From contig DAHVPC010000002.1 of assembly GCA_027318475.1 (NCBI GenBank), positions 1-46,089 of the forward strand: a stretch of DNA of 46,089 nucleotides, in the 5' to 3' direction. This document shows positions 4,192-29,906 of this stretch, piece after piece. A program made the translations under genes and the position numbers. The notes below the pieces were generated by a model that saw only the letters and a list, made by a program, of their open reading frames with translations, was not told the origin of the DNA and searched no databases. Source of the DNA: Candidatus Cloacimonadota bacterium (GTDB taxonomy: Bacteria > Cloacimonadota > Cloacimonadia > Cloacimonadales > Cloacimonadaceae). How positions within the stretch are numbered: position 1 is the first letter of the stretch; each line of letters starts with the position of its first letter.

Positions 4192-5835
4192 CTAGGTCAG
4201 TTTTTTATCCTTCATCGAGTAGGTCAGGTTTACGTATCTCCGGTGCCATTTCAAGAGGTGCAGGGCGTTTTTGAGGTCCGACATCGTGATCTTGAGGGAG
4301 GCAAAATCGGCGGCACTTTCGTCATCGAGGCTGATGGCCTTGGTTTCGATCGCCTTTCTGATCGCCACCATAGCCGCTTCCCTGGCCAGGAACGTGATTT
4401 CCGCCGCGGAATACCCCATCACCGCTTCCGAAAAGGCAAACAGGTCCACGTCGTCGTCCAGGGGCATGCCTCTGGTCGCGATCTCCAGCACCCTTTTGCA
4501 GCCCGGCAGATTGGGCTTGCGGATCTCCAGCTTGTAGTCGAACCGTCCAGGCCTCAGCAACGCGGCATCCAGAAGGTCGGGCCGGTTGGTGGACGCCAGG
4601 ACGGTGACGTTTCCGTAGTCCTTGATGCCATCCATCAGGGACATCAGTTGGTTGACCACGGTCGAATACCATTTCGAGGATTCCCCGGAGAGCCTGGTTT
4701 GGGCGATGGAATCGATCTCGTCGATGAAGATGACCGAGGGTTGGTAGTCCCTGGCTTCATCGAAGATGTCGCGCAGGTTCTTTTCGGACTGGCCGAAGTT
4801 CTTGTTCAGGATATCGGGTCCGGAAACGGGGATGAAATGGGCGTTGACTTCGTGCGCGATGGCTTTGGCGATGAGGGTTTTGCCGTTGCCGGGGTCTCCC
4901 CAGAGCAAGATCCCCCGATAGGGCCTCACGCCCAGATGCTCGTACAACTGGGGCTTCACGATGGGCAGTTCGACCACGATCCGGATGTTCTGGATGATCT
5001 CGTCCACCCCTCCGATATCGGCAAAACTGGTTTCGGGAACGTATCTCAGGTTCTGGGCATCGGAGGTCTGGGCAACGTTTTTCTGCCTGCCTTCCAATCC
5101 AGATACGCCATGATCAAAGCCAGGCGTCGCGCCTTCAGTTTCCTCCGGGGAAGAGGTTCCCAAGTGCTGGATGCCAACGGGTTCCCAGCGTTTGGCGATG
5201 TTGCTGGCGTCGTTCAGATACACCAGGCCCCAGTTATGGGAATCCGCCAGATGCACCAGCGCCGGAAGTGCCGCCACATACCTGCGGAAAAACTGCAGCT
5301 GGAAAACCGGGCAGAAATCCAAACTCTGCTTCCCGACGATCTTTTCCAGATCCCGGGTGAGGGCTTCCTTGTCGATCCGCCAGGTGTTTTTATCCAGGAA
5401 TTCCCCGTATTGGTACCAGTATCTGGCGTTTTTATCAAAGGGGGTTTTGGCGTGGCGCAGGATGATCCCTTTGAACAGACGGCAGCCCCAGCATTGGGGG
5501 TTTTTGCTGTCGCAGTATTCCTCCTGGTTTTCCGTGGCCAGATATCCTTGATGGCAGGCTGCCACCGCGTATTTCTCCGGCAGTGAGAACTCCGCGGGCA
5601 GCATCTCTTTCTGGTCGTGGATCACTCGCGCGGAATCCCAGTCGCGGATGGTGTCCAGCAGTTTCCGGAACACCTCAAATTTGGCCAAAGCCTCGTGATT
5701 GCTGGTCTCCACGAGGTGCAGCCCCGATCCGGAACCAGCGGGCGTATACTTCCTGAATTTGGTAGCGTATTCCAACACTTTGAGGTAATCCGGAATATTG
5801 GGATTTCCAAAGCGGACAGCAAAATCAAAGTCCAT
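4192..5835 (-). CDS. AAA+ ATPase (CDC48/p97/PAN-like single motor domain) with a Cys-containing N-terminal region
   Basis: Walker A GDPGNGKT, Walker B VIFIDEIDS, SRH ASTNRPDLLDAALLRPGRFD; N-terminal C-x(13)-C-x6-C-x2-C-type cluster CHQGYLATENQEEYCDSKNPQCWGC. Start at 5835 (MDFDFAVRFG) preferred over the 6180 ORF start, which overlaps the divergent gene. Confidence 0.85.
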   Translation of the reverse strand: MDFDFAVRFGNPNIPDYLKVLEYATKFRKYTPAGSGSGLHLVETSNHEALAKFEVFRKLLDTIRDWDSARVIHDQKEMLPAEFSLPEKYAVAACHQGYLATENQEEYCDSKNPQCWGCRLFKGIILRHAKTPFDKNARYWYQYGEFLDKNTWRIDKEALTRDLEKIVGKQSLDFCPVFQLQFFRRYVAALPALVHLADSHNWGLVYLNDASNIAKRWEPVGIQHLGTSSPEETEGATPGFDHGVSGLEGRQKNVAQTSDAQNLRYVPETSFADIGGVDEIIQNIRIVVELPIVKPQLYEHLGVRPYRGILLWGDPGNGKTLIAKAIAHEVNAHFIPVSGPDILNKNFGQSEKNLRDIFDEARDYQPSVIFIDEIDSIAQTRLSGESSKWYSTVVNQLMSLMDGIKDYGNVTVLASTNRPDLLDAALLRPGRFDYKLEIRKPNLPGCKRVLEIATRGMPLDDDVDLFAFSEAVMGYSAAEITFLAREAAMVAIRKAIETKAISLDDESAADFASLKITMSDLKNALHLLKWHRRYVNLTYSMKDKKLT

Positions 5836-6055
5836 TGCCAACCATCCTGATGTTCTTTTCTTCCCTCTGAAACGGGGCGTCATCTTGTCAAGGACTATCT
5901 GGCCGGCCTTTGCCAGAGCGTCTGTTATTCCGGCGGCGGGAATTTTCGCTTGACAGAGTTTTATCGCCCGGTTTTCTGTTGCGGAGTTAGATTTGATGCC
6001 GGAGTCACACTCCGGACCCGTATTTGCAAACCTACGATACTTGAAGGAGTATGTT

Positions 6056-8341
6056 ATGAAAAACGTGGCACGGACATCCCTGCTCCTGCTGCTTGGTTTG
6101 ATGTTCTTCCTCAGCGCCTGCGACTGGCTGATGCCCTCCGACGACGAGGAAGCCCCCTCCCTGTTGATCAATACCCCCACATCCTATTTTTCCTGGGCGA
6201 CCACCAGCGCAACCCTCGATATTGCAGGCACCGCGACGGACAATGAAGAGATCAAATCCGTAAAAATCAGCGTCAACGGAGGCTCCTGGGTTTCCGCCGA
6301 AGGCAAAGCAGCCTGGTCGCTGGAAGACCTGTCTTTGCAGATGGGCGAAAACACCGTCGTCTGCGAAGCCAAGGACAAAGCCGGCAACGCAGCCAAAGAC
6401 ACCCTCTGGGTGACGCGGAACACGGACGTCGAATTCACCAGCGCGCCCACTTTCGCCCAAAGCAACTTCTTTGCCGGGCAAACCGGCTACACGGCAGTCA
6501 TCCAGGCTTTGCAGCCAGCAGCCGGAAAAGCCATCACCTCGGTCAAACTGGCCCGCCTCAATGCCGACCTGACCGTGCTTCAGGAAGTGGGCGACCTGTA
6601 TGACGACGGCAATTTGGGCAACAACGACGAGATCTCCGGAGACGGCCTGTACTCCGGCAACATCGGCATCTACGAGCAGGACCCCGGTTCCTTTCTCTAC
6701 CGCGTGGTGGCCTACACAGGAAGCAAGGTTGCGAACTACTCGCCGCTTTTCCGGGTCAACGTCTTCGAGCCCATGTCCACAGCCGACATCGCTGTGCTGA
6801 CAGATACTTACGACCAGATCGACGACGTCCTCAACGCCAGCACAGCCACCAGCTTGGACCAGGGCGTGACCGTGCTGAAGAACTGGTTTGAAGATCAGGA
6901 AGGCGTGGCTTCCGTCGAGGAAGTGGACGGCTCCCTGCAGATCACCTACACCAGCGGCATCACCAGCGGCGTCATCTTCTCCGAAACCGATGCCGACGGC
7001 TACATCATCACGAAAGGCGGCTCCGGAACTCCAGAACGCCAAAAGCCAAGCGTGCCCATGCACAAGCAGACCCGCGGAGTCAATCCCTACGCCGGTATGA
7101 CCCCCTACGTGAACTGGAGCCTGCCCAAAACTGTGGATCCCAATGCCATCCTGGACAAGGACGTGCTGATCTGGGCGCCCTTTGAAGACGCCTTCGGCAT
7201 CGATATGCGGCCTTCCCTGGAAACCATCTTCGGCAACAGCGACCTCGACCTCAACGTCGTCTCGCTCACCAATCAGGCCTGCACCATCGCCTCGCTGAAC
7301 AACCTCGCCGAATACGGCACCGTCATCTTCGATACCCATGGTTCCGGCGGCGAACACATCCTCACCGGAGAACTGATGACCGCCAGCAACTTGATCGAAC
7401 ATCTGCTGGACATCATCGGAAACAAGATTTCCTACTTCGAGAACATCACCTACAGCAACGTTGGCGGTTTCGTGAAGAAAGGCACGGTCTACAGCGTCCG
7501 CAGCGCCTACATTGCCAGCCTTGCCGGCACCATGCCCAACAGCCTGATCTTCAACGGCTCCTGCGAAAGCTCCAAGACCCTCAACCTCTCCAATGCCTTC
7601 CTGGGCAAAGGCGCCAAGGCCTACTTCGGCTTCAACAAGATCGTCAGCACCAGCTTCTGCAAGGCCAAATGCGACGAACTCTTCCAAAAGATGGCAGTGG
7701 AATTGAAGAACAACGGCCAGGCCTTCACCGCCGGCCAATCCGATCCCGGCAGCCACCACGCAACCTACACCATGAACGCCTCCACCAACGAACTGCACTA
7801 CTCCTTCGACCTCATCAACGGCGACTTCGAATTGGGCAACCTCACCGGATGGTCCAGGGAGGGCGATGGCCGCGTTATCACGCAATTGGCAGGCACGGCG
7901 CCCACGCAAGGCAACTTCATGGGCATCATTTCCACCGGACTGGGTTACACCACGAGCAGCGGCAGCATCGCCCAATCCTTCAAGGTGCCGGACTCCGTCT
8001 CCAACCTCAAGATCAAGTGGAACTTCATGTCCGAAGAGTTTATGGAATGGGTCGGCTCCCAATATCAGGACTACCTCACTTTCGCGCTGCGCGACAGCAA
8101 CGGCGTGGAACACGAACTCTTCCACAATACCATCGACAGCTTCGTCGGCTTTGGCCTGATCGACGTCTCGCCGCCCGTTTACTTCGACCACGGCGACTGC
8201 TACGGCACGGACTGGCGGGAGTTCGTGGCGGATATCGTGCCTTATCGTGGCCAGGTGGTGCGCTTGATCGTACGCATCGGCGATGTGGGCGACAGCGCCT
8301 ACGATTCCGCCTGTTTGCTGGACGAGATCTCGATTTATTGA
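6056..8341 (+). CDS. Large lipoprotein: Ig-like domain, putative clan CD (caspase/gingipain-fold) peptidase core, C-terminal beta-sandwich anchor-type domain
   Basis: Lipobox LFFLSAC-type (MKNVARTSLLLLLGLMFFLSAC); TVIFDTHGSGGEH (His-Gly) and SLIFNGSCESS (Gly-Ser-Cys) signatures; C-terminal NGDFELGNLTGWSREGDG... CLLDEISIY. Start moved from 5993 to 6056. Confidence 0.8.
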   Translation: MKNVARTSLLLLLGLMFFLSACDWLMPSDDEEAPSLLINTPTSYFSWATTSATLDIAGTATDNEEIKSVKISVNGGSWVSAEGKAAWSLEDLSLQMGENTVVCEAKDKAGNAAKDTLWVTRNTDVEFTSAPTFAQSNFFAGQTGYTAVIQALQPAAGKAITSVKLARLNADLTVLQEVGDLYDDGNLGNNDEISGDGLYSGNIGIYEQDPGSFLYRVVAYTGSKVANYSPLFRVNVFEPMSTADIAVLTDTYDQIDDVLNASTATSLDQGVTVLKNWFEDQEGVASVEEVDGSLQITYTSGITSGVIFSETDADGYIITKGGSGTPERQKPSVPMHKQTRGVNPYAGMTPYVNWSLPKTVDPNAILDKDVLIWAPFEDAFGIDMRPSLETIFGNSDLDLNVVSLTNQACTIASLNNLAEYGTVIFDTHGSGGEHILTGELMTASNLIEHLLDIIGNKISYFENITYSNVGGFVKKGTVYSVRSAYIASLAGTMPNSLIFNGSCESSKTLNLSNAFLGKGAKAYFGFNKIVSTSFCKAKCDELFQKMAVELKNNGQAFTAGQSDPGSHHATYTMNASTNELHYSFDLINGDFELGNLTGWSREGDGRVITQLAGTAPTQGNFMGIISTGLGYTTSSGSIAQSFKVPDSVSNLKIKWNFMSEEFMEWVGSQYQDYLTFALRDSNGVEHELFHNTIDSFVGFGLIDVSPPVYFDHGDCYGTDWREFVADIVPYRGQVVRLIVRIGDVGDSAYDSACLLDEISIY

Positions 8342-8351
8342 GGCGTTTGAG

Positions 8352-8816
8352 ATGCCACGGATGCTAGCGCTGCTTGCCCTGGTGGTTCTGATCGCCAGCT
8401 GCTGCGTGGCCAAATCCGCCCAAAAAAGCCAGGTAAAAGCCACGCTCTGGCAGGCTGGACAAGCCACGGAACCGGCTGAGCCCGATTCCCTGGCCGCCAT
8501 TGCTTTGCGCCTGCTGGCCTCTGCGGATGACGAACTGCGCTTGATCGTGACTCCGGAAATGGTGCAGGGCATCCTGGATCAGGACATCGCGCTGGAACTC
8601 GTCTGGTCCGAAACGTTCACGGCGGACACGGCGTTTGGAGTGAAACAGGAGATCGACCGCGTCCTCATCCCTCTCACCGGAGAATACGGGCCGCCAGATG
8701 ATCTGGCCTCCGCCGTCATCCTTTTCGGCGACGGCAAGGGCTATGTCACCGGCCCCAACCAAAACAACTTCGCCCGGCCGGACTTGTTGAAATTGCGGGA
8801 ATTGCTCAAACTGTAG
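8352..8816 (+). CDS. Small lipoprotein of unknown function
   Basis: MPRMLALLALVVLIASCCVAKSAQ lipobox; 154 aa; follows the 6056-8341 gene by about 10 bp. Confidence 0.65.
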   Translation: MPRMLALLALVVLIASCCVAKSAQKSQVKATLWQAGQATEPAEPDSLAAIALRLLASADDELRLIVTPEMVQGILDQDIALELVWSETFTADTAFGVKQEIDRVLIPLTGEYGPPDDLASAVILFGDGKGYVTGPNQNNFARPDLLKLRELLKL

Positions 8817-8838: not shown

Positions 8839-8871
8839 AGGGAGCGGAACTGGTTTCCGCTCCCTTTTCTT
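8839..8871 (+). terminator. Rho-independent terminator
   Basis: Perfect 11-bp stem AGGGAGCGGAA-(ACTGG-type loop)-TTCCGCTCCCT followed by TTTCTT. Confidence 0.85.
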
Positions 8872-9800: not shown

Positions 9801-11156
9801 ATGCCGCGTAAAGCCCTGATTGTTTTGGCCGTGCTTATGTTGATGGCGCCTCTGGCTCTGTCTGCGGAGGAATGGGCCACGCATACGGATGGCCAGAAAG
9901 GCTACAGCGTCCGCCATCCCGTATCCTGGCAGGTCACGAGCGACTCCGCCACGGGCTTTTTCGAGGCGCGGACCCAGCCCGACAAAGCCGCTCCCGCCAG
10001 CACTTTCTCGGTGGTGGTGACTGAACTGAGCGAACTGGACCGCAACAGCGATTTTTACGATTACATGGCCAAGGGGCAGGCGGAACTGAAGCGCGAATTT
10101 GAGGCCAACGGCTTCCGGAACATCCGGGTTGTAAGTTCCGTGGCGGACACCCTGAACGGATCTGTAGTGCACAGGCTGGAACTGCGTTCCGACCAATACG
10201 GCAGCCTCGCCATGCGCACGCAGATCGTGCGGATCAGGCACAAGAACTGGCATTTCACGCTCACATGTTCTGCGGAAGACGGCTACTACTACGATCTGGC
10301 GAGGGACGACTTCGAGGGCATGATCTCCAGTTTCCGTTTCCAGGTCAACCTGCCAGCCTACCTGAAGGACTATGTTCGAGTGCGCGCCGATCTGGACGGC
10401 CGGGAAACGGTTTGGCACTGGCAGGGCACAGTCTATGGCCTGGTTCCAGGCGAAAAACGCCGTGAACTCTTCGCGCTGGAAGGCTACTACATCGTAAGGG
10501 CGGAATCCCGCGACAACGGCTATGTGCTCGTGGGACGCGAAGCCTCGCTGCTGCTAGACCACCGTACCGGCCTGATCGCCGAAACCTGGCGCAATCCCTA
10601 CACCGGCAAAGACGTCCCGGTGCTGCAGATCTTCAATGATCCGGTGAATCAGGACCTGACTTTCGAGGAGCAGGACTTCCCTTTCCTGCCCCAGATCCTG
10701 CCCCGGTCTGAATTGGGCGGCAAGCTGGCCTATTACAGCGAGATCTTTCCCTATTCCACCAATCCGCTGCAGCGCAAGGATTTTCCCCTCAATTCGCAAA
10801 ACAACACCTATCAGGCCGCGGAGTTCAGCCAATACCTGGTTGACGCCGCTGACCTTGCCGGCCCTGCTCTGACGGGGGTTCCGGCGGTATATACCTTCAC
10901 CAGGATCCAACCCTGGCTGCCCTTCATGCTGATGGGTGAACGGGCGGGAAACGTCGTGCTGGTGGGACGCGGCAGCAAGGTGCCGGAGGGCTTCTCCGGC
11001 TTGCCGCAGTATCTGCAGGACTATGTAACGCAGCGGCACCCGGAATTTGCCCACGCGCCGGAAACCTATACCCAGCCCAATGCCACGGCCTGGTCGTACT
11101 TCAAGAAATTGGCGGAGGCGGAGCGATCCACCACGCAGGAACTGCCAGAGCGGTGA
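9801..11156 (+). CDS. Secreted protein with an N-terminal PsbP/DUF1795-like region; function unknown
   Basis: Signal peptide MPRKALIVLAVLMLMAPLALSAEE; GYSVRHPVSWQV...GFFEA... pattern of PsbP-like domains. Confidence 0.65.
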   Translation: MPRKALIVLAVLMLMAPLALSAEEWATHTDGQKGYSVRHPVSWQVTSDSATGFFEARTQPDKAAPASTFSVVVTELSELDRNSDFYDYMAKGQAELKREFEANGFRNIRVVSSVADTLNGSVVHRLELRSDQYGSLAMRTQIVRIRHKNWHFTLTCSAEDGYYYDLARDDFEGMISSFRFQVNLPAYLKDYVRVRADLDGRETVWHWQGTVYGLVPGEKRRELFALEGYYIVRAESRDNGYVLVGREASLLLDHRTGLIAETWRNPYTGKDVPVLQIFNDPVNQDLTFEEQDFPFLPQILPRSELGGKLAYYSEIFPYSTNPLQRKDFPLNSQNNTYQAAEFSQYLVDAADLAGPALTGVPAVYTFTRIQPWLPFMLMGERAGNVVLVGRGSKVPEGFSGLPQYLQDYVTQRHPEFAHAPETYTQPNATAWSYFKKLAEAERSTTQELPER

Positions 11157-11206
11157 GGACGGGCATTGCCGGCTTGCTGGAGAAAACTTTTTACCATGGA
11201 GATGAG

Positions 11207-12697
11207 ATGAAAAGAACCATGCTTTTACTTGTTTTGGCGTTTCTGGGCGCGCTGTTGGCAGCCCAGGACTACAATCCCTATCTGAACATGATGCACAGCG
11301 CACGCTGCGCTGATGGCAACCTGAAGGTCCGATGGGACGATGTGAGCGGCAATTTCCTGGGCACCCAGTGCCTCTACAGCGCGGAAGGCTCGGCCTGGCA
11401 GCAAGCCGCTGTGGAGCAGCTCTCGGGCACCCAGATGCAAGCGCTGGTGCCTTACACCTATGGGCAGTCGCTGCGCTACCGTTTGCGCACTGAGATCACA
11501 TATCAGGGCGAGAGTTTGGTGTATATGCAGACGCCGTTTCTAAACGCCGATTCCTGGCCGCCGACGCTCAACTCGTTGGGGCAGATCGGCACCGATGCCA
11601 CGGGCGATTCGGTGACCGTGTACGACGACGTGCTGGATTTTACCGGCTCCTGGTTCGGCAGCACTCCGAACAAACTCTATTCAGCCCTGGGCAACGCCGC
11701 CAACTCTTTCCCGACAATGAACTCCATCACCTCCTACAACGTCTATGGCACCATCATCGCCAATCCAGCCAGCGTTGTGGACACCCTGGCTTTCGCGATG
11801 CTTTATACCTTCAACATCCCCGGAGTGATCTCGCCGGGGCTTTACAAAGCATCCATCGACGACACCGGGATGCCTTTCTACGAGCGCATCGGTGACATCC
11901 AAAGCCAGGTCCTGGGCGGAAAACTCTATCTGGCCTGCAATTGGGCCGACCTCACCGGGGATCCGGATTTCGGCGCCTGGCCCAACGCCTACAACGCCCT
12001 GGCCATATCCAGCCTGAGCATGCGCATGGCCTACAACATCGCCACCGGAGACATCGATTTCGGCATCGGCGACTACAGTCTGCCCGCCGCGCTGCTCTTT
12101 GCCGACAACCACTACGACGTGCCCGTAAACGACCTGCCCCAGGCCCTGAACCTCACAGTCAACTCCGGCTCCAATACGGTCAGCTTCGACTATCTGGATG
12201 CCAACGGCGATTTTCCCCTGCAAGCCGATTTCGTGATCACCGACGGCCCCACGGTCAGCCTGCTGCCGGAGTCTTACGACTACTCCCAAAGTGTTCATTT
12301 CACAGCGGTTCTGCCCTATTTGCCAGCCAGCGGCCAACTGCTGCTCAGCGATAACGGCGTGGACGTGGTGCAAGTGAATTGGGACGGCGTGGACGCTCCC
12401 ATGGAAACGGTTCCGGCGCCCATCCTGTCTTGCCGGATGGCCAATCCGCTGCGTTGGGGTTCCACGCCTTACAGCATCGCCTTGGATGGCTTGGAGCGAG
12501 GGCCTGTCAACGTCGAAGTGTTTAACCTCCGCGGGCAGAACCTGGGTTCGCTGTATGCTGGAACTGCGGATGCCGCTGGCCTGGAACTCAATTGGGACGG
12601 GCAATTGGGCGGCAACGCGCTGGATAGCGGCCTCTATTTCCTGAGGATCACGCAAAACGGCAAGGCGCTGAACCGCAAGTTCGTGCTGGCGAGATAA
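11207..12697 (+). CDS. Secreted protein with FlgD-like/T9SS-like C-terminal domain
   Basis: MKRTMLLLVLAFLGALLAAQDYNPY signal peptide; C-terminus VNVEVFNLRGQNLGSLYAG...LNWDGQLGGNALDSGLYFLRITQNGKALNRKFVLAR. Confidence 0.8.
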   Translation: MKRTMLLLVLAFLGALLAAQDYNPYLNMMHSARCADGNLKVRWDDVSGNFLGTQCLYSAEGSAWQQAAVEQLSGTQMQALVPYTYGQSLRYRLRTEITYQGESLVYMQTPFLNADSWPPTLNSLGQIGTDATGDSVTVYDDVLDFTGSWFGSTPNKLYSALGNAANSFPTMNSITSYNVYGTIIANPASVVDTLAFAMLYTFNIPGVISPGLYKASIDDTGMPFYERIGDIQSQVLGGKLYLACNWADLTGDPDFGAWPNAYNALAISSLSMRMAYNIATGDIDFGIGDYSLPAALLFADNHYDVPVNDLPQALNLTVNSGSNTVSFDYLDANGDFPLQADFVITDGPTVSLLPESYDYSQSVHFTAVLPYLPASGQLLLSDNGVDVVQVNWDGVDAPMETVPAPILSCRMANPLRWGSTPYSIALDGLERGPVNVEVFNLRGQNLGSLYAGTADAAGLELNWDGQLGGNALDSGLYFLRITQNGKALNRKFVLAR

Positions 12698-14814
<2,117 letters not shown>

Positions 14815-15778: not shown

Positions 15779-17740
15779 ATGAAAAAAGCGCTTCTTACTT
15801 TCCTGCCGCTTCTTTCCGCTTTGTTTCTGGCAGCCGTTCCACCCCAAGTGGACAACGTCTACACCTTCCAGCGCACCGACGGCTCAAAGATCATCGACAT
15901 CTACTACGACCTCTTTGATCTGGAAAGCGACCTCTGCGACATCAGCGTACTGCTTTCCGAAGACGGAGGGTTGAACTTCACGATCGCTCCGAATCCGGCG
16001 TTTATGACCGGCGACGTGGGCCTTGGCATAGTTCCCGGCCCGGGAAAACACATCGTCTGGGACGCCGGTTCGGAAGATTTCTTTCTGGATGGCGTAAATT
16101 ACGTCTTCCAAATCACCGCCGAGGACAACACGCTTCCTCCTCCGCCTGAATTCACCTGGGTGGAAGGCGGAATGTTCTCCAACGGGACCTCCAATGTGGT
16201 CGTAGGCAGTTTCGAACTCGGCGTCCACGAGGTCACGCAGGCCCAATTCACCGAAGTGATGGGCTACAATCCCGTGCTGAACTATCCTCCGCCTCAATGG
16301 CCGGATTACGGCGTGGGGGCCGATTACCCCGTTTACTATGTTTCCTGGTTCGATGCCGTCGAATACTGCAATCGCCGCAGCATGCTGGAAGGCCGCACGC
16401 CCTGCTACAGCTTCGGCGTCAGCGGCACCGACCCCAACACCTGGCCAGATGGCTGGAACGCCAGTTACGGCACCCACAGCCAGATCAGCTGCAATTGGAG
16501 CACCGACGGCTACCGTCTGCCAACTGAGGCGGAATGGCACTTCGCGGCACATGGCGGCATCAGTTCACTGGGCTATACCTACAGCGGCTCGAACAGCCTG
16601 CCCAGTGTCGGCTGGTATGCCGGCAATTCCGGCCTGGTCTCGCATCCAGTGATGCAGCTGGCTCCCAACGAGGTCGGCACTTTCGACATGAGCGGAAACG
16701 TCCGCGAATGGTGCTGGGACATCTACGGCCCCTATCAGAATGTGCCGCCCTTCAGCGATCCCCTCAGCGACCCGGATGGCGCTTTGACCGGTGATTTCCG
16801 GATCAACCGCGGCGGCTATTTCCAGGATCCCGCGGCGATCTGTGCCGTTGCAGCCAGGATGTGGGCCTATGCCAGCTTGCACGAGCCGGACCAGGGTTTC
16901 CGCCTGGTGCGCTCCGAATGGGATCCGGAGTTCATTCCTGTGGAAGGCGGTACTTTCTTCAACGGCAGCAGCGACGTGACCCTCTCCAGTTTCCAGCTGG
17001 GCATGCATGAGATCACCCAGAAGCAATACGTCTCCACCATGCACGCCAATCCATCCTTCACTTGGTATCCGCCGCCCTATTACGGCCTGGGCAATTATCA
17101 TCCGGAATACTACATCAGTTGGATGGACGCCGTGGCCTACTGCAACATGCGCAGTTACGACGAAAACCTCGCCCCCTGCTACAGCTACGTCGATTCCCAG
17201 GGATATGACTGGGGCAGCAATCCCGAGAGCTGGCCGGATGGCTGGAACAACGCCTATCCGCTGCCCAGGCACGACCTGAACATCGTCTGCAACTGGGATG
17301 CCAACGGCTATCGCCTGCCCACGGAAATGCAATGGCAGTTCGCAGCTCGCGGCGGCAACATGACCCAAAACTACACTTACAGCGGCTCCAACACCCTGGA
17401 TCCGGTCGGCTGGTACGCGAACAATTCCGGCGGCAGCACGCATCCCATTCAGCTGAAAATGCCCAATGAACTGGGCTTTTTCGATATGAGCGGCAATGTG
17501 CGCGAATGGTGCTGGGACCTCTATGGAACATTGCCCCCCGGTCCTTTCACCGATTACACCGGTCCGGTTACAGGCACCTATCGGGTTGCCAGAGGCGGCT
17601 GGGCTAACGATTTCGACCAATGGCCCTGGCCCCATGCCATCGCCACCCGTTTCTACGATTATTCAAACAAACACGAGCCGGATTTCGGCGCGCGCATCGT
17701 GCGGCCATTACCCCGAACCAGTAAAGATAAAAGCAAATAA
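15779..17740 (+). CDS. Secreted protein with two tandem SUMF1/formylglycine-generating-enzyme-type domains
   Basis: Two copies of the FGE scaffold: GYRLPTEAEWHFAAHGG...MSGNVREWCWDIYG...INRGGYF...GFRLVR and GYRLPTEMQWQFAARGG...MSGNVREWCWDLYG...VARGGW...GARIVR. Confidence 0.9.
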   Translation: MKKALLTFLPLLSALFLAAVPPQVDNVYTFQRTDGSKIIDIYYDLFDLESDLCDISVLLSEDGGLNFTIAPNPAFMTGDVGLGIVPGPGKHIVWDAGSEDFFLDGVNYVFQITAEDNTLPPPPEFTWVEGGMFSNGTSNVVVGSFELGVHEVTQAQFTEVMGYNPVLNYPPPQWPDYGVGADYPVYYVSWFDAVEYCNRRSMLEGRTPCYSFGVSGTDPNTWPDGWNASYGTHSQISCNWSTDGYRLPTEAEWHFAAHGGISSLGYTYSGSNSLPSVGWYAGNSGLVSHPVMQLAPNEVGTFDMSGNVREWCWDIYGPYQNVPPFSDPLSDPDGALTGDFRINRGGYFQDPAAICAVAARMWAYASLHEPDQGFRLVRSEWDPEFIPVEGGTFFNGSSDVTLSSFQLGMHEITQKQYVSTMHANPSFTWYPPPYYGLGNYHPEYYISWMDAVAYCNMRSYDENLAPCYSYVDSQGYDWGSNPESWPDGWNNAYPLPRHDLNIVCNWDANGYRLPTEMQWQFAARGGNMTQNYTYSGSNTLDPVGWYANNSGGSTHPIQLKMPNELGFFDMSGNVREWCWDLYGTLPPGPFTDYTGPVTGTYRVARGGWANDFDQWPWPHAIATRFYDYSNKHEPDFGARIVRPLPRTSKDKSK

Positions 17741-26285: not shown

Positions 26286-29200
26286 ATGAACCATATGCGT
26301 AAAATGCTTGTATTAATGGGGCTTATCGCCCTTTGTGGAGTAGCCCCAGCGCTCACTCTGAACGTCAATGTGCCGGCCGGCGCTTTCACCGGCCACACCC
26401 GCGGAACGGAAACCGCGCCTCTGCTGGAACCTGGAGTTCCAGCCCTCAATTACCTACCGGTGCGCGTGCTGCTGCCCTTCGGCGAAACCGTGCAGAGCGT
26501 GAGCGTGACTTGCTCCGCGCCGGAAACCCAGCGCGGCGTGAGCCTGGACTATGTGCGGGCGCAGCAGCGGATTTCGCTTCCGGCTCCGGATCTCACCCAG
26601 CCGGATCCCGCCGTCTGGAACCTGGACGCGCCTTATCCCGCCAAAGATTTCGATTATCTGGGCATCCAAACCATGCGCGGCTTCCAAATCGCCGTCATCA
26701 ACCTCTATCCCTGGAAATACAATCCCCTGCGCCGCGAGATCCTGGCCAGCGGCAGCGTGGAAATCCGGGTCGAGACCGTCCGTGACGCTGACGTGGCGCG
26801 GTCGTCCGCCAATTTCTACGCGCCCGCCCGTTCCGACTCCGACATCCGCGCTCTGGTGCTGAATCCGGAAACCGCGGCCACCTACGCCGCCGCCCCTGCC
26901 TGGCGCGACCACACTCCGCAAAGCCGCCTGATCGACCTCAGCGTACCCAAACAGATGATCATCATCACCAATACCGCCAGCGCGCCGCTCTTCCAGAACT
27001 ACATCCAGTGGCGCAGCGCCCAGAACGTGAGCACCGCGGTGTATCTGACCCCCGATATCTACAGCGCTTATCCTGGCGCGGACAATGCCGCCAAGGTGCG
27101 CAACTTCATCAGCGACGCCTATCAGACCTGGGCCGCCACCTCCACGCCCCTGGAATATGTGATCCTGGGCGGTGACGACGAGATCGTGCCGGAACGCGGA
27201 TGTTATGGCCAGGTGGGCGACACGGTGGACAACCGCATGCCCGTGGACCTCTATTTCAGCAACCTGGACGGAAACTGGAACGCCGACGGAGACGAACTTT
27301 TCGGCGAACAACTGGACCAGACGGACATGCTTCCGGAAGTGCACATCGGCAGATTCCCGGCTGAAACGGCGGCCGAGTTTGGCAACATCCTCCGCAAGAT
27401 CCAATACTACGTGGATTACGATACTTTCAGCAACAACATCGCCGTGATGTTCGGCGAAAATCTGAACATGAACCCCGTTACCTGGGGCGGCGACTACAAG
27501 GACGACGTAGCGCTGCACATCCCCGAAACCTATTTCCTGCGCACGATGTACCAGCGCGACGGCACCTACAGCCCGGAAGGCGTATGGCACGCCATCAACG
27601 AAGGCGCGCATGTGATGAACCACATGGGCCATGCCAACGAAACCTTCCTGCTGGGACAGGGGAACAACACCATCGAGCAACTACAGAACACCGAATACGG
27701 CTTCCTCTATTCCCAGGGCTGCTATCCAGCCGCCTTTGACCAAAGGACCAGCGGCGACGGCGAATCCATCGCGGAACACATGGTCACGACCTCCGGCGGC
27801 CTCTTTTCCTTCATCGGGAACACCCGCTACGGATGGTACGCGCCGGGCAGCATCAACGGCGCTTCGCAGTTCTACGACCGGGAGTATTTCATCGGGCTTT
27901 ACGAGACCCTGAACACCAGGCTGGGCCAGGCTCTCAGCTACTCCCGCCTGCAAAACCTGAACGCCGCGCTGAGCAACGACGTGATGCGCTGGTGCTACTA
28001 TGAAGTGGTGCTTTTCGGGGATCCCTCCATCGAGATTAAATACCCCGATCCTGCCTTGCCGCTCCTCACTTTGGAGGACTACAGCATCAGCGACGTGGAA
28101 GGCGATAACGATGGCAGCATCAACCCCGGCGAGATCATCCGCGTCTACCCCGTGATCCGCAACCATCAGGACTGGGCTACGGCTTACAACGTCAGCGTGC
28201 GCCTGGAAAACCTGCCCGCCGGCGTGCAAAACCTGAGCGGCGACCAGGTGCTGGCGCAGCTCCTGCCCGGCCAGACCAACCCGGCGGATTTCTTTCTGCG
28301 CGTGCAATTGCCTGCCGCTGGAACCTATGGGAACTATACCTTCCAACTGGCATTGGAATCCGTGCATCCCAGCACCAACCTGGGCACGGGCATCCGGAAG
28401 TTTGACCTGAACTACAACATCACCCTCATCGACAACCGCTTTCCCTGGGATTGCCAGGTGGGAACAAAATCCGCGCCCATCGTCCATGACCTGGATGGCG
28501 ACGGCAGCCTGGACATCCTGTATCAGGACGTGTTCGGCGAGGCCTATTTCATTGACAGTGAGGGCGAGGATTTCGACGGCTTTTTCTTCGGGCCGCAGAT
28601 GGACATCATGCGCAGCTCCGCTTTGGGCGACATCACCGGCGACGGCAGCCCGGAAATCGTTTTCGCCAGCCGCACCGGTCGCCTTTCCGCTGCTTCCGCT
28701 GCTGGAACCCAAGTCCTGAATTACCAGGCCGGCAGCCCCTTCCTCTTCACCCCCGTGATCGCCCGCATCGACAACTCCGGCACTGACAAAGTGATAGCCG
28801 GTTCCCTGAACGGAAACCTACACGCCGTCAATGCCGACGGCACGCCGGTCAACGGATTTCCGGTCAATCTGGGCGCCGCGTTCTACTCCGAACTGGCAGC
28901 CGCGGACCTCGACTCCGACGGCCTGCTGGAGATCATCGCCGGCACCCAGGACGGCAAACTGCACATCATCAATGGCGACGGCAGCGAAGCGCCCGGATTC
29001 CCCATCCAACTGGACGCCCCGATCACCGGCTCGCCCGTGATTCTGGACAACAACGACATCCTGGTGGGCACGAACAGCCACGCGCTGCTGCTTTCCCACC
29101 AGGGCTACATCCATTTCAACGAACCGATCGCTTCGCCCATGGCTGGTGGAGCGGTGTTGGCGGATATGAACGGCAACGGCGACCTGGAACTGGTGTTCGT

Positions 29201-29906
29201 CACGCTGAACGGAATGCTCTATGTGATGTACCAGAACGGCGATGTGGCGCCAGGCTTCCCGGTTGAGTTGGGCGCCAATTTCAACACTCCGCCGCTGATC
29301 GCCAACCTGGACGGCGACTATTACCCGGAGATCCTGCTCAGTTCCTACGTGAACTCCGTGTATGGCTACAATCAAGACGGCACTCCGCTCGCGGGATTTC
29401 CCTTCATCACCTCCTACAATGGCTGCACGCCCGCCACGCTCTGCGATTTCGACGGCGACGGCATGCTCAAACTGGTGAGCGGTTACTCCACCGGAGTGCT
29501 GATGCTCAATCTGCGCCGCCCGGAAACACCCATCATGCCTTGGGTCACATACAGGGGTTCGCTGAAACGCCAGGGCAGTTATGCCGGCACCGGCTATGTT
29601 TCCGGCGACGATCCCGCCGTTCCAGCAATTTCAACGCAACTGGCGCAGAACTACCCCAATCCCTTCAAGCCCAGCACCACCATCGCCTATCAGACCGCCA
29701 AAGACGGCTCTGCCAAACTCTGCGTTTACAACCTCAAGGGCCAGTTGGTGCGCGTGCTGCAGGACGGCAACCTCGCCAAAGGCGCGCACAGCGTGGTTTG
29801 GGACGGGCGCGACGCCAATGGCAACGCCGTTTCCAGCGGAGTGTACCTTTACCGCCTGCAGAACGGCGGCACGGAACTCACGCGGCGCATGCTGCTGTTG
29901 AAATGA
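26286..29906 (+). CDS. Peptidase C25 (gingipain-like) with FG-GAP/VCBS-type propeller repeats and FlgD-like C-terminal domain
   Basis: MIIITNTASAPLFQNYIQWRSAQNV, YVILGGDDEIVPER, HIGRFPAET, HMGHANETF and FLYSQGCYPAAFD catalytic region, SFIGNTRYGWYAPG; repeated D-x-DGDG propeller motifs; YPNPFKPST...YNLKGQLVRVL...VWDGRDANGNAVSSGVYLYRL terminus. Confidence 0.93.
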   Translation: MNHMRKMLVLMGLIALCGVAPALTLNVNVPAGAFTGHTRGTETAPLLEPGVPALNYLPVRVLLPFGETVQSVSVTCSAPETQRGVSLDYVRAQQRISLPAPDLTQPDPAVWNLDAPYPAKDFDYLGIQTMRGFQIAVINLYPWKYNPLRREILASGSVEIRVETVRDADVARSSANFYAPARSDSDIRALVLNPETAATYAAAPAWRDHTPQSRLIDLSVPKQMIIITNTASAPLFQNYIQWRSAQNVSTAVYLTPDIYSAYPGADNAAKVRNFISDAYQTWAATSTPLEYVILGGDDEIVPERGCYGQVGDTVDNRMPVDLYFSNLDGNWNADGDELFGEQLDQTDMLPEVHIGRFPAETAAEFGNILRKIQYYVDYDTFSNNIAVMFGENLNMNPVTWGGDYKDDVALHIPETYFLRTMYQRDGTYSPEGVWHAINEGAHVMNHMGHANETFLLGQGNNTIEQLQNTEYGFLYSQGCYPAAFDQRTSGDGESIAEHMVTTSGGLFSFIGNTRYGWYAPGSINGASQFYDREYFIGLYETLNTRLGQALSYSRLQNLNAALSNDVMRWCYYEVVLFGDPSIEIKYPDPALPLLTLEDYSISDVEGDNDGSINPGEIIRVYPVIRNHQDWATAYNVSVRLENLPAGVQNLSGDQVLAQLLPGQTNPADFFLRVQLPAAGTYGNYTFQLALESVHPSTNLGTGIRKFDLNYNITLIDNRFPWDCQVGTKSAPIVHDLDGDGSLDILYQDVFGEAYFIDSEGEDFDGFFFGPQMDIMRSSALGDITGDGSPEIVFASRTGRLSAASAAGTQVLNYQAGSPFLFTPVIARIDNSGTDKVIAGSLNGNLHAVNADGTPVNGFPVNLGAAFYSELAAADLDSDGLLEIIAGTQDGKLHIINGDGSEAPGFPIQLDAPITGSPVILDNNDILVGTNSHALLLSHQGYIHFNEPIASPMAGGAVLADMNGNGDLELVFVTLNGMLYVMYQNGDVAPGFPVELGANFNTPPLIANLDGDYYPEILLSSYVNSVYGYNQDGTPLAGFPFITSYNGCTPATLCDFDGDGMLKLVSGYSTGVLMLNLRRPETPIMPWVTYRGSLKRQGSYAGTGYVSGDDPAVPAISTQLAQNYPNPFKPSTTIAYQTAKDGSAKLCVYNLKGQLVRVLQDGNLAKGAHSVVWDGRDANGNAVSSGVYLYRLQNGGTELTRRMLLLK

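Follow-up and report, generated by a model that had tools for sequence, protein, structure and literature searches.

A predicted Cloacimonadota lipoprotein with a cryptic C25-related candidate cysteine peptidase domain, encoded next to a small lipoprotein

In a 46,089-nucleotide stretch of Cloacimonadota DNA (the window, part of a 2.34 Mb draft genome in 251 contigs), we found a gene whose product is likely a peptidase of clan CD, related to family C25 (gingipains), with a His428-Cys503 catalytic dyad and standing in a family of its own. Judged by profile comparison, the relation to C25 is distant but specific and involves the Cys half of the domain; the family is new to the profile libraries searched and lies outside C25 membership. 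The protein is a predicted bacterial lipoprotein, presumably lipidated at the lipobox cysteine Cys22, and its gene is followed directly by one for a second, small lipoprotein. The features of this two-gene unit are as follows.

6043-6049, 5′ of the peptidase ORF: ribosome-binding-site-like GAAGGAG
6056..8341, + strand: lipoprotein with a cryptic C25-like (clan CD) candidate cysteine peptidase domain, 761 aa, from an ATG start to a stop codon
6056..6121, + strand: predicted signal peptide and lipobox LSAC (Cys22 codon 6119-6121)
6155..6421, + strand: Ig-like domain, residues 34-122 (Pfam PF09136, 7.5e-07)
6425..6760, + strand: second beta-sandwich, residues 124-235, kept in 7/7 family members
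6761..6991, + strand: small alpha/beta domain, residues 236-312, directly before the peptidase domain
7142..7810, + strand: cryptic candidate peptidase domain, residues 363-585 (hhalign to C25, score 33.4, p = 3.7e-4)
7337..7339, + strand: His428, proposed catalytic histidine, in VIFDTHGSGG (HG motif after a hydrophobic strand)
7406..7528, + strand: variable stretch between His and Cys, residues 451-491, the least conserved part of the domain
7562..7564, + strand: Cys503, proposed nucleophile, in SLIFNGSCESS, aligned to the C25 position where 98% of 61 sequences have Cys
7811..8338, + strand: choice-of-anchor L type beta-sandwich, residues 586-761 (NCBIfam NF038133)
8352..8816, + strand: small lipoprotein P0005, 154 aa, lipobox IASC17
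8840..8868, + strand: weak terminator-like hairpin after the two-gene unit

The arrangement of the two candidate residues is that of clan CD: histidine comes before cysteine, glycine follows the histidine, a small residue precedes the cysteine, and both motifs stand after a hydrophobic strand (VIFDTHG and SLIFNGSC). Both motifs, and the 75 residues between them, had been pointed out in an earlier note on this DNA, and translation of the two codons confirms them. The spacing is 75 residues instead of the 30-36 of C25 because of the variable stretch at residues 451-491. The same note had placed the domain behind a lipobox and an Ig-like domain and in front of a C-terminal beta-sandwich, an architecture borne out by LSAC22, by the Pfam match at residues 34-122 (to Glucodextran_B/Big families), and by the choice-of-anchor L model (32.3 bits; model cut-off, 27), which matches all seven family members at E ≤ 1.

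Among the other domains, residues 124-235 carry a conserved DDG..GDE..GDG..S stretch and form strands in a low-confidence AlphaFold model. The small alpha/beta domain is the best-predicted part of the two AlphaFold models (pLDDT up to 85, against mean values of 40 and 46), and genome searches found no relatives of it beyond the peptidase-lipoprotein family; weak genome matches (L114-L135) look on inspection like chance. It is a possible prodomain. The AAA+ ATPase gene that is divergent to the peptidase gene (4192-6180, − strand) encodes an AAA domain near residues 424-554 and an uncharacterized N-terminal half. Elsewhere in the window (15779-17740, + strand), two FGE-sulfatase (formylglycine-generating-enzyme-like) domain stretches follow a signal-peptide-like start.

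The lipobox cysteine is aligned in five homologs from the same genus, and the most remote homolog has its own lipobox (MISC); all of these lipoboxes were read by eye. A K/S-DDE run (window 6122-6151) follows the lipobox in 5/7 homologs and resembles the Bacteroidetes lipoprotein export signal, but its K/S stands at about +7 instead of +3 (PMC5080379), roughly four positions too distant from the Cys, so that exposure at the cell surface is only a possibility.

We found full-length homologs in five other genomes of the same genus (54-67% identity) and a remote one, G092, in a genome of another family (42% identity). The gene is thus carried by seven of 125 Cloacimonadota genomes, and many members of its genus lack it. 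Scans of genomes and viral contigs for further homologs gave three loci only, all from the same genus; weak genome matches to the peptidase domain (L102 and L103) were inspected and look like chance. The Ig-like domain is missing from G092 and is therefore dispensable.

All seven members, down to 42% identity, keep His428 and Cys503 unchanged, which is the outcome sought by the conservation check proposed in the earlier note. This invariance is informative, since only 2/10 His and 2/8 Cys of the whole protein are invariant across the seven members, the two candidate residues included. Gly429, Ser502, Asp563, and His581 are invariant as well. Other residues near the histidine vary: Asp426, ahead of His428, is Tyr in one homolog, and the GGEH that follows His428 is altered in G092. 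Identity to G092 is 47% around His428 and 58% around Cys503, falling to 22% in residues 451-491. Strict conservation of the dyad and its flanks, with a divergent stretch between them, is the pattern of an active site, and the domain is probably active. This pattern argues against a catalytically dead clan CD fold that acts in the cell envelope as a module for binding or adhesion, a reading for which the neighboring Ig-like, beta-sandwich, and choice-of-anchor domains speak and which we consider improbable.

Searches with single sequences and library profiles did not reveal the relation to C25. For residues 355-585 there is no convincing match in Pfam, NCBIfam, or PDB sequences: Pfam, PHROGs, and PADLOC give no match in the peptidase domain, phmmer and hmmsearch against the PDB find no relative of it, Pfam peptidase models match none of the seven members, and the C25 model PF01364 matches none at E ≤ 10. 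We compared the domain with large C25, C14, and C11 alignments built from the same phylum. Large C25 alignments are possible because all 41 Cloacimonadota genomes searched carry C25 domains (four to 21 per genome; 14 in the genome of the window), and none was found in 14 control genomes.

Against C25 (61 sequences), hhalign gives the query domain a score of 33.4 (p = 3.7e-4), and the Cys half alone gives p = 1.7e-4. The score grows with the depth of the C25 profile: 20.5, 29.7, and 33.4 with 14, 41, and 61 sequences, respectively (p = 0.047, 0.0016, and 0.00037). In comparison, the maximum against C25 among 120 column-shuffled decoys is 23.4, and the reversed query scores 16.7. The alignment places Cys503 on the catalytic Cys, the following helix in register, and the GAKAYFGF strand on the GAIA..G strand of C25. 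The HH-suite probability for the match is only 36-50%. In an unbiased comparison, every ORF of the fetched loci was assigned to a cluster, and the clusters were compared with the query; of 25 clusters, the two best apart from the query's own are the two C25 clusters.

Accepted clan CD pairs calibrate these scores. With the same tool, C14 against C25 scores 33.2, both catalytic residues being correctly placed, and C11 against C14 scores 32.5. The query is therefore about as distant from C25 as C14 is (33.4 vs. 33.2), so that a profile relation of clan-level strength is found, in the Cys half only. The query scores no better than noise against C14 (16.9) and C11 (15.2). None of C25, C14, and C11 gives a significant profile match in the His half of the domain; residues 124-362 give no signal against the C25 profile; and none of the peptidase profiles matches the sequence on either side of the peptidase domain.

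The same comparison bears on a different assignment of the invariant residues. Asp563 and His581 are conserved like Cys503, and Gly-x-Cys-x-Ser (GSCES) fits the small-x-nucleophile-x-small pattern of a nucleophile elbow, so that the protein might have an alpha/beta-hydrolase (dienelactone-hydrolase-like) or amidotransferase-like fold with a Cys503-Asp563-His581 triad and a structural His428. However, with the query an alpha/beta-hydrolase (DLH-like) profile of comparable depth reaches 15.9, which is noise, and does not place its nucleophile on Cys503; the C25 profile reaches 33.4 and has its Cys there. With the alpha/beta-hydrolase profile as the control, we consider such a hydrolase unlikely and favor the clan CD dyad.

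Position-specific matrices of the C25 motifs rank His428 and Cys503 first among all positions of the protein. Shuffled proteins reach the observed score in 21/500 cases (4%) for the His motif and 56/500 for the Cys motif, so the motifs taken alone are weak evidence. Conservation of the residues, together with the extended C25 profile match, raises the case above chance. For His428, the case draws on its invariance, on the HG motif after a strand, and on its first rank with the C25 His-motif matrix.

The predicted structures are too poor to show the fold. AlphaFold models of the domain and of the full-length protein, made from four sequences, have mean pLDDT values of 40 and 46. The element order in the domain model, b-a-b-a-b(His)-...-b(Cys)-a-b-a, is the same as that described for the caspase/haemoglobinase fold (PMC4357240), and Foldseek with the low-confidence domain model returned only unrelated noise. 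The clan CD proposal of the earlier note is thus supported in its assignment and choice of dyad, by residue invariance and the C25 profile; the caspase-like fold, which the element order fits, is a prediction.

A role in type IX secretion (T9SS), as a sortase or processing peptidase, had also been suggested. The sortase PorU is likewise a C25 enzyme, and T9SS-type cargo is present in the window (for example, the C25 protein at 26286-29906, + strand). However, the genome has a separate PorU of its own (L018; NF033707, 588.8 bits, above the curated cut-off), and the protein described here has a lipobox and matches neither the PorU models nor a T9SS C-terminal signal model. In addition, its gene occurs in 7/125 Cloacimonadota genomes, against 41/41 searched for C25 peptidases; since many members of its genus and almost the whole phylum lack it, it cannot be a core part of the T9SS. 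The suggestion runs against these data, and we regard this role as very improbable.

The gene for P0005 starts 10 bp past the peptidase stop codon. A P0005 homolog lies directly 3′ of the peptidase gene in six of the seven genomes, including G092, where identity has dropped to 22% and both lipobox and position are retained; the other neighbors tested are mostly not common to the seven loci. In the exception (G001), the partner is missing and a Ser/Thr kinase-like gene follows the peptidase gene. P0005 has no relative in Pfam or PDB sequences. The hairpin after the unit is called weak because such matches are about as frequent in shuffles of the region.

Relatives of P0005 also occur apart from the peptidase gene. 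One stands alone in genome G024 (L196, 7578-8135). Another lies at a contig end in genome G006 (L195, G006:C1:78000-86410) with the same gene order as the window: homologs of 9801-11156, 11153-12697, 12716-13726, and 13723-14814 follow the partner gene. The peptidase gene was not found in this genome, which may reflect its loss or a location outside the contig.

In Bacteroides, lipoprotein proteases share a transcript with small exported inhibitors, and one of these inhibitors is encoded 5 bp downstream (PMC3462683). By analogy with these operons, P0005 may be an inhibitor or regulator of the peptidase. More tentatively, the two genes could represent a new clan CD family of lipid-anchored peptidases in which every member has a dedicated lipid-anchored protein inhibitor, although we think this less probable than not.

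A likely working order can be outlined. The protein would be exported and then lipidated at Cys22, with the catalytic domain kept off the membrane by the beta-sandwich domains and by the small alpha/beta domain, the latter perhaps acting as a prodomain. Cys503, at the end of a sheet strand, would be activated by His428, which ends the neighboring strand, and would cleave polypeptides at the cell envelope or close to it. Control of the enzyme would probably fall to the small downstream lipoprotein.

The assignment would add a peptidase family missed by the profile libraries searched to a clan of great importance in biology and medicine. A further implication is that Cloacimonadota may hold more envelope proteases than annotation shows, in addition to the four to 21 C25 domains per genome searched. 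The linked small lipoprotein, if its proposed role is true, may exemplify a class of endogenous inhibitor that is new for gingipain-like enzymes.

The closest known systems are the C25 peptidases, or gingipains (PF01364). With these the candidate shares, with profile support, the Cys motif, the following helix, and the GA..G strand, as well as an HG motif at the end of a hydrophobic strand, a signal peptide, and accessory beta-sandwich domains. It differs in the distance from His to Cys, which is 30-36 residues (one at 53) in 48 C25 domains, and in the residues of the domain ahead of His (about 65 here, compared with a median of 226 in C25). The N-terminal subdomain of C25 is undetectable here by sequence, although a structural equivalent is possible. 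A lipobox and a choice-of-anchor L domain stand in place of the T9SS C-terminal signal, and PF01364 does not match.

PorU (NF033707) is a cell-envelope protein with a catalytic domain of C25 type, as proposed here, but the present protein has no NF033707 match at E ≤ 10, is rare rather than universal, and is found in the same genome as a separate PorU. The C14 caspases and metacaspases and the C11 clostripains share the clan CD layout, with His-Gly before small-Cys, and differ in that their profiles score against the query only at noise level.

For the two-gene unit, the known counterparts are staphopain with staphostatin and the Bacteroides C10 proteases Bfp/Btp with Bfi/Bti (PMC3462683), each a protease with a co-operonic inhibitor. 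The Bacteroides pairs share with our unit a lipoprotein protease whose gene is followed within a few bases by that of a small, exported protein resembling a lipoprotein. In contrast, the staphopain and Bacteroides C10 proteases are papain-like (clan CA), and P0005, for which inhibition is proposed by analogy, differs from the known co-operonic inhibitors in lacking a Pfam or PDB sequence relative. If the proposal is true, such a unit would be for gingipain-type peptidases what the staphopain-staphostatin and Bacteroides Bfp-Bfi systems are for papain-like ones.
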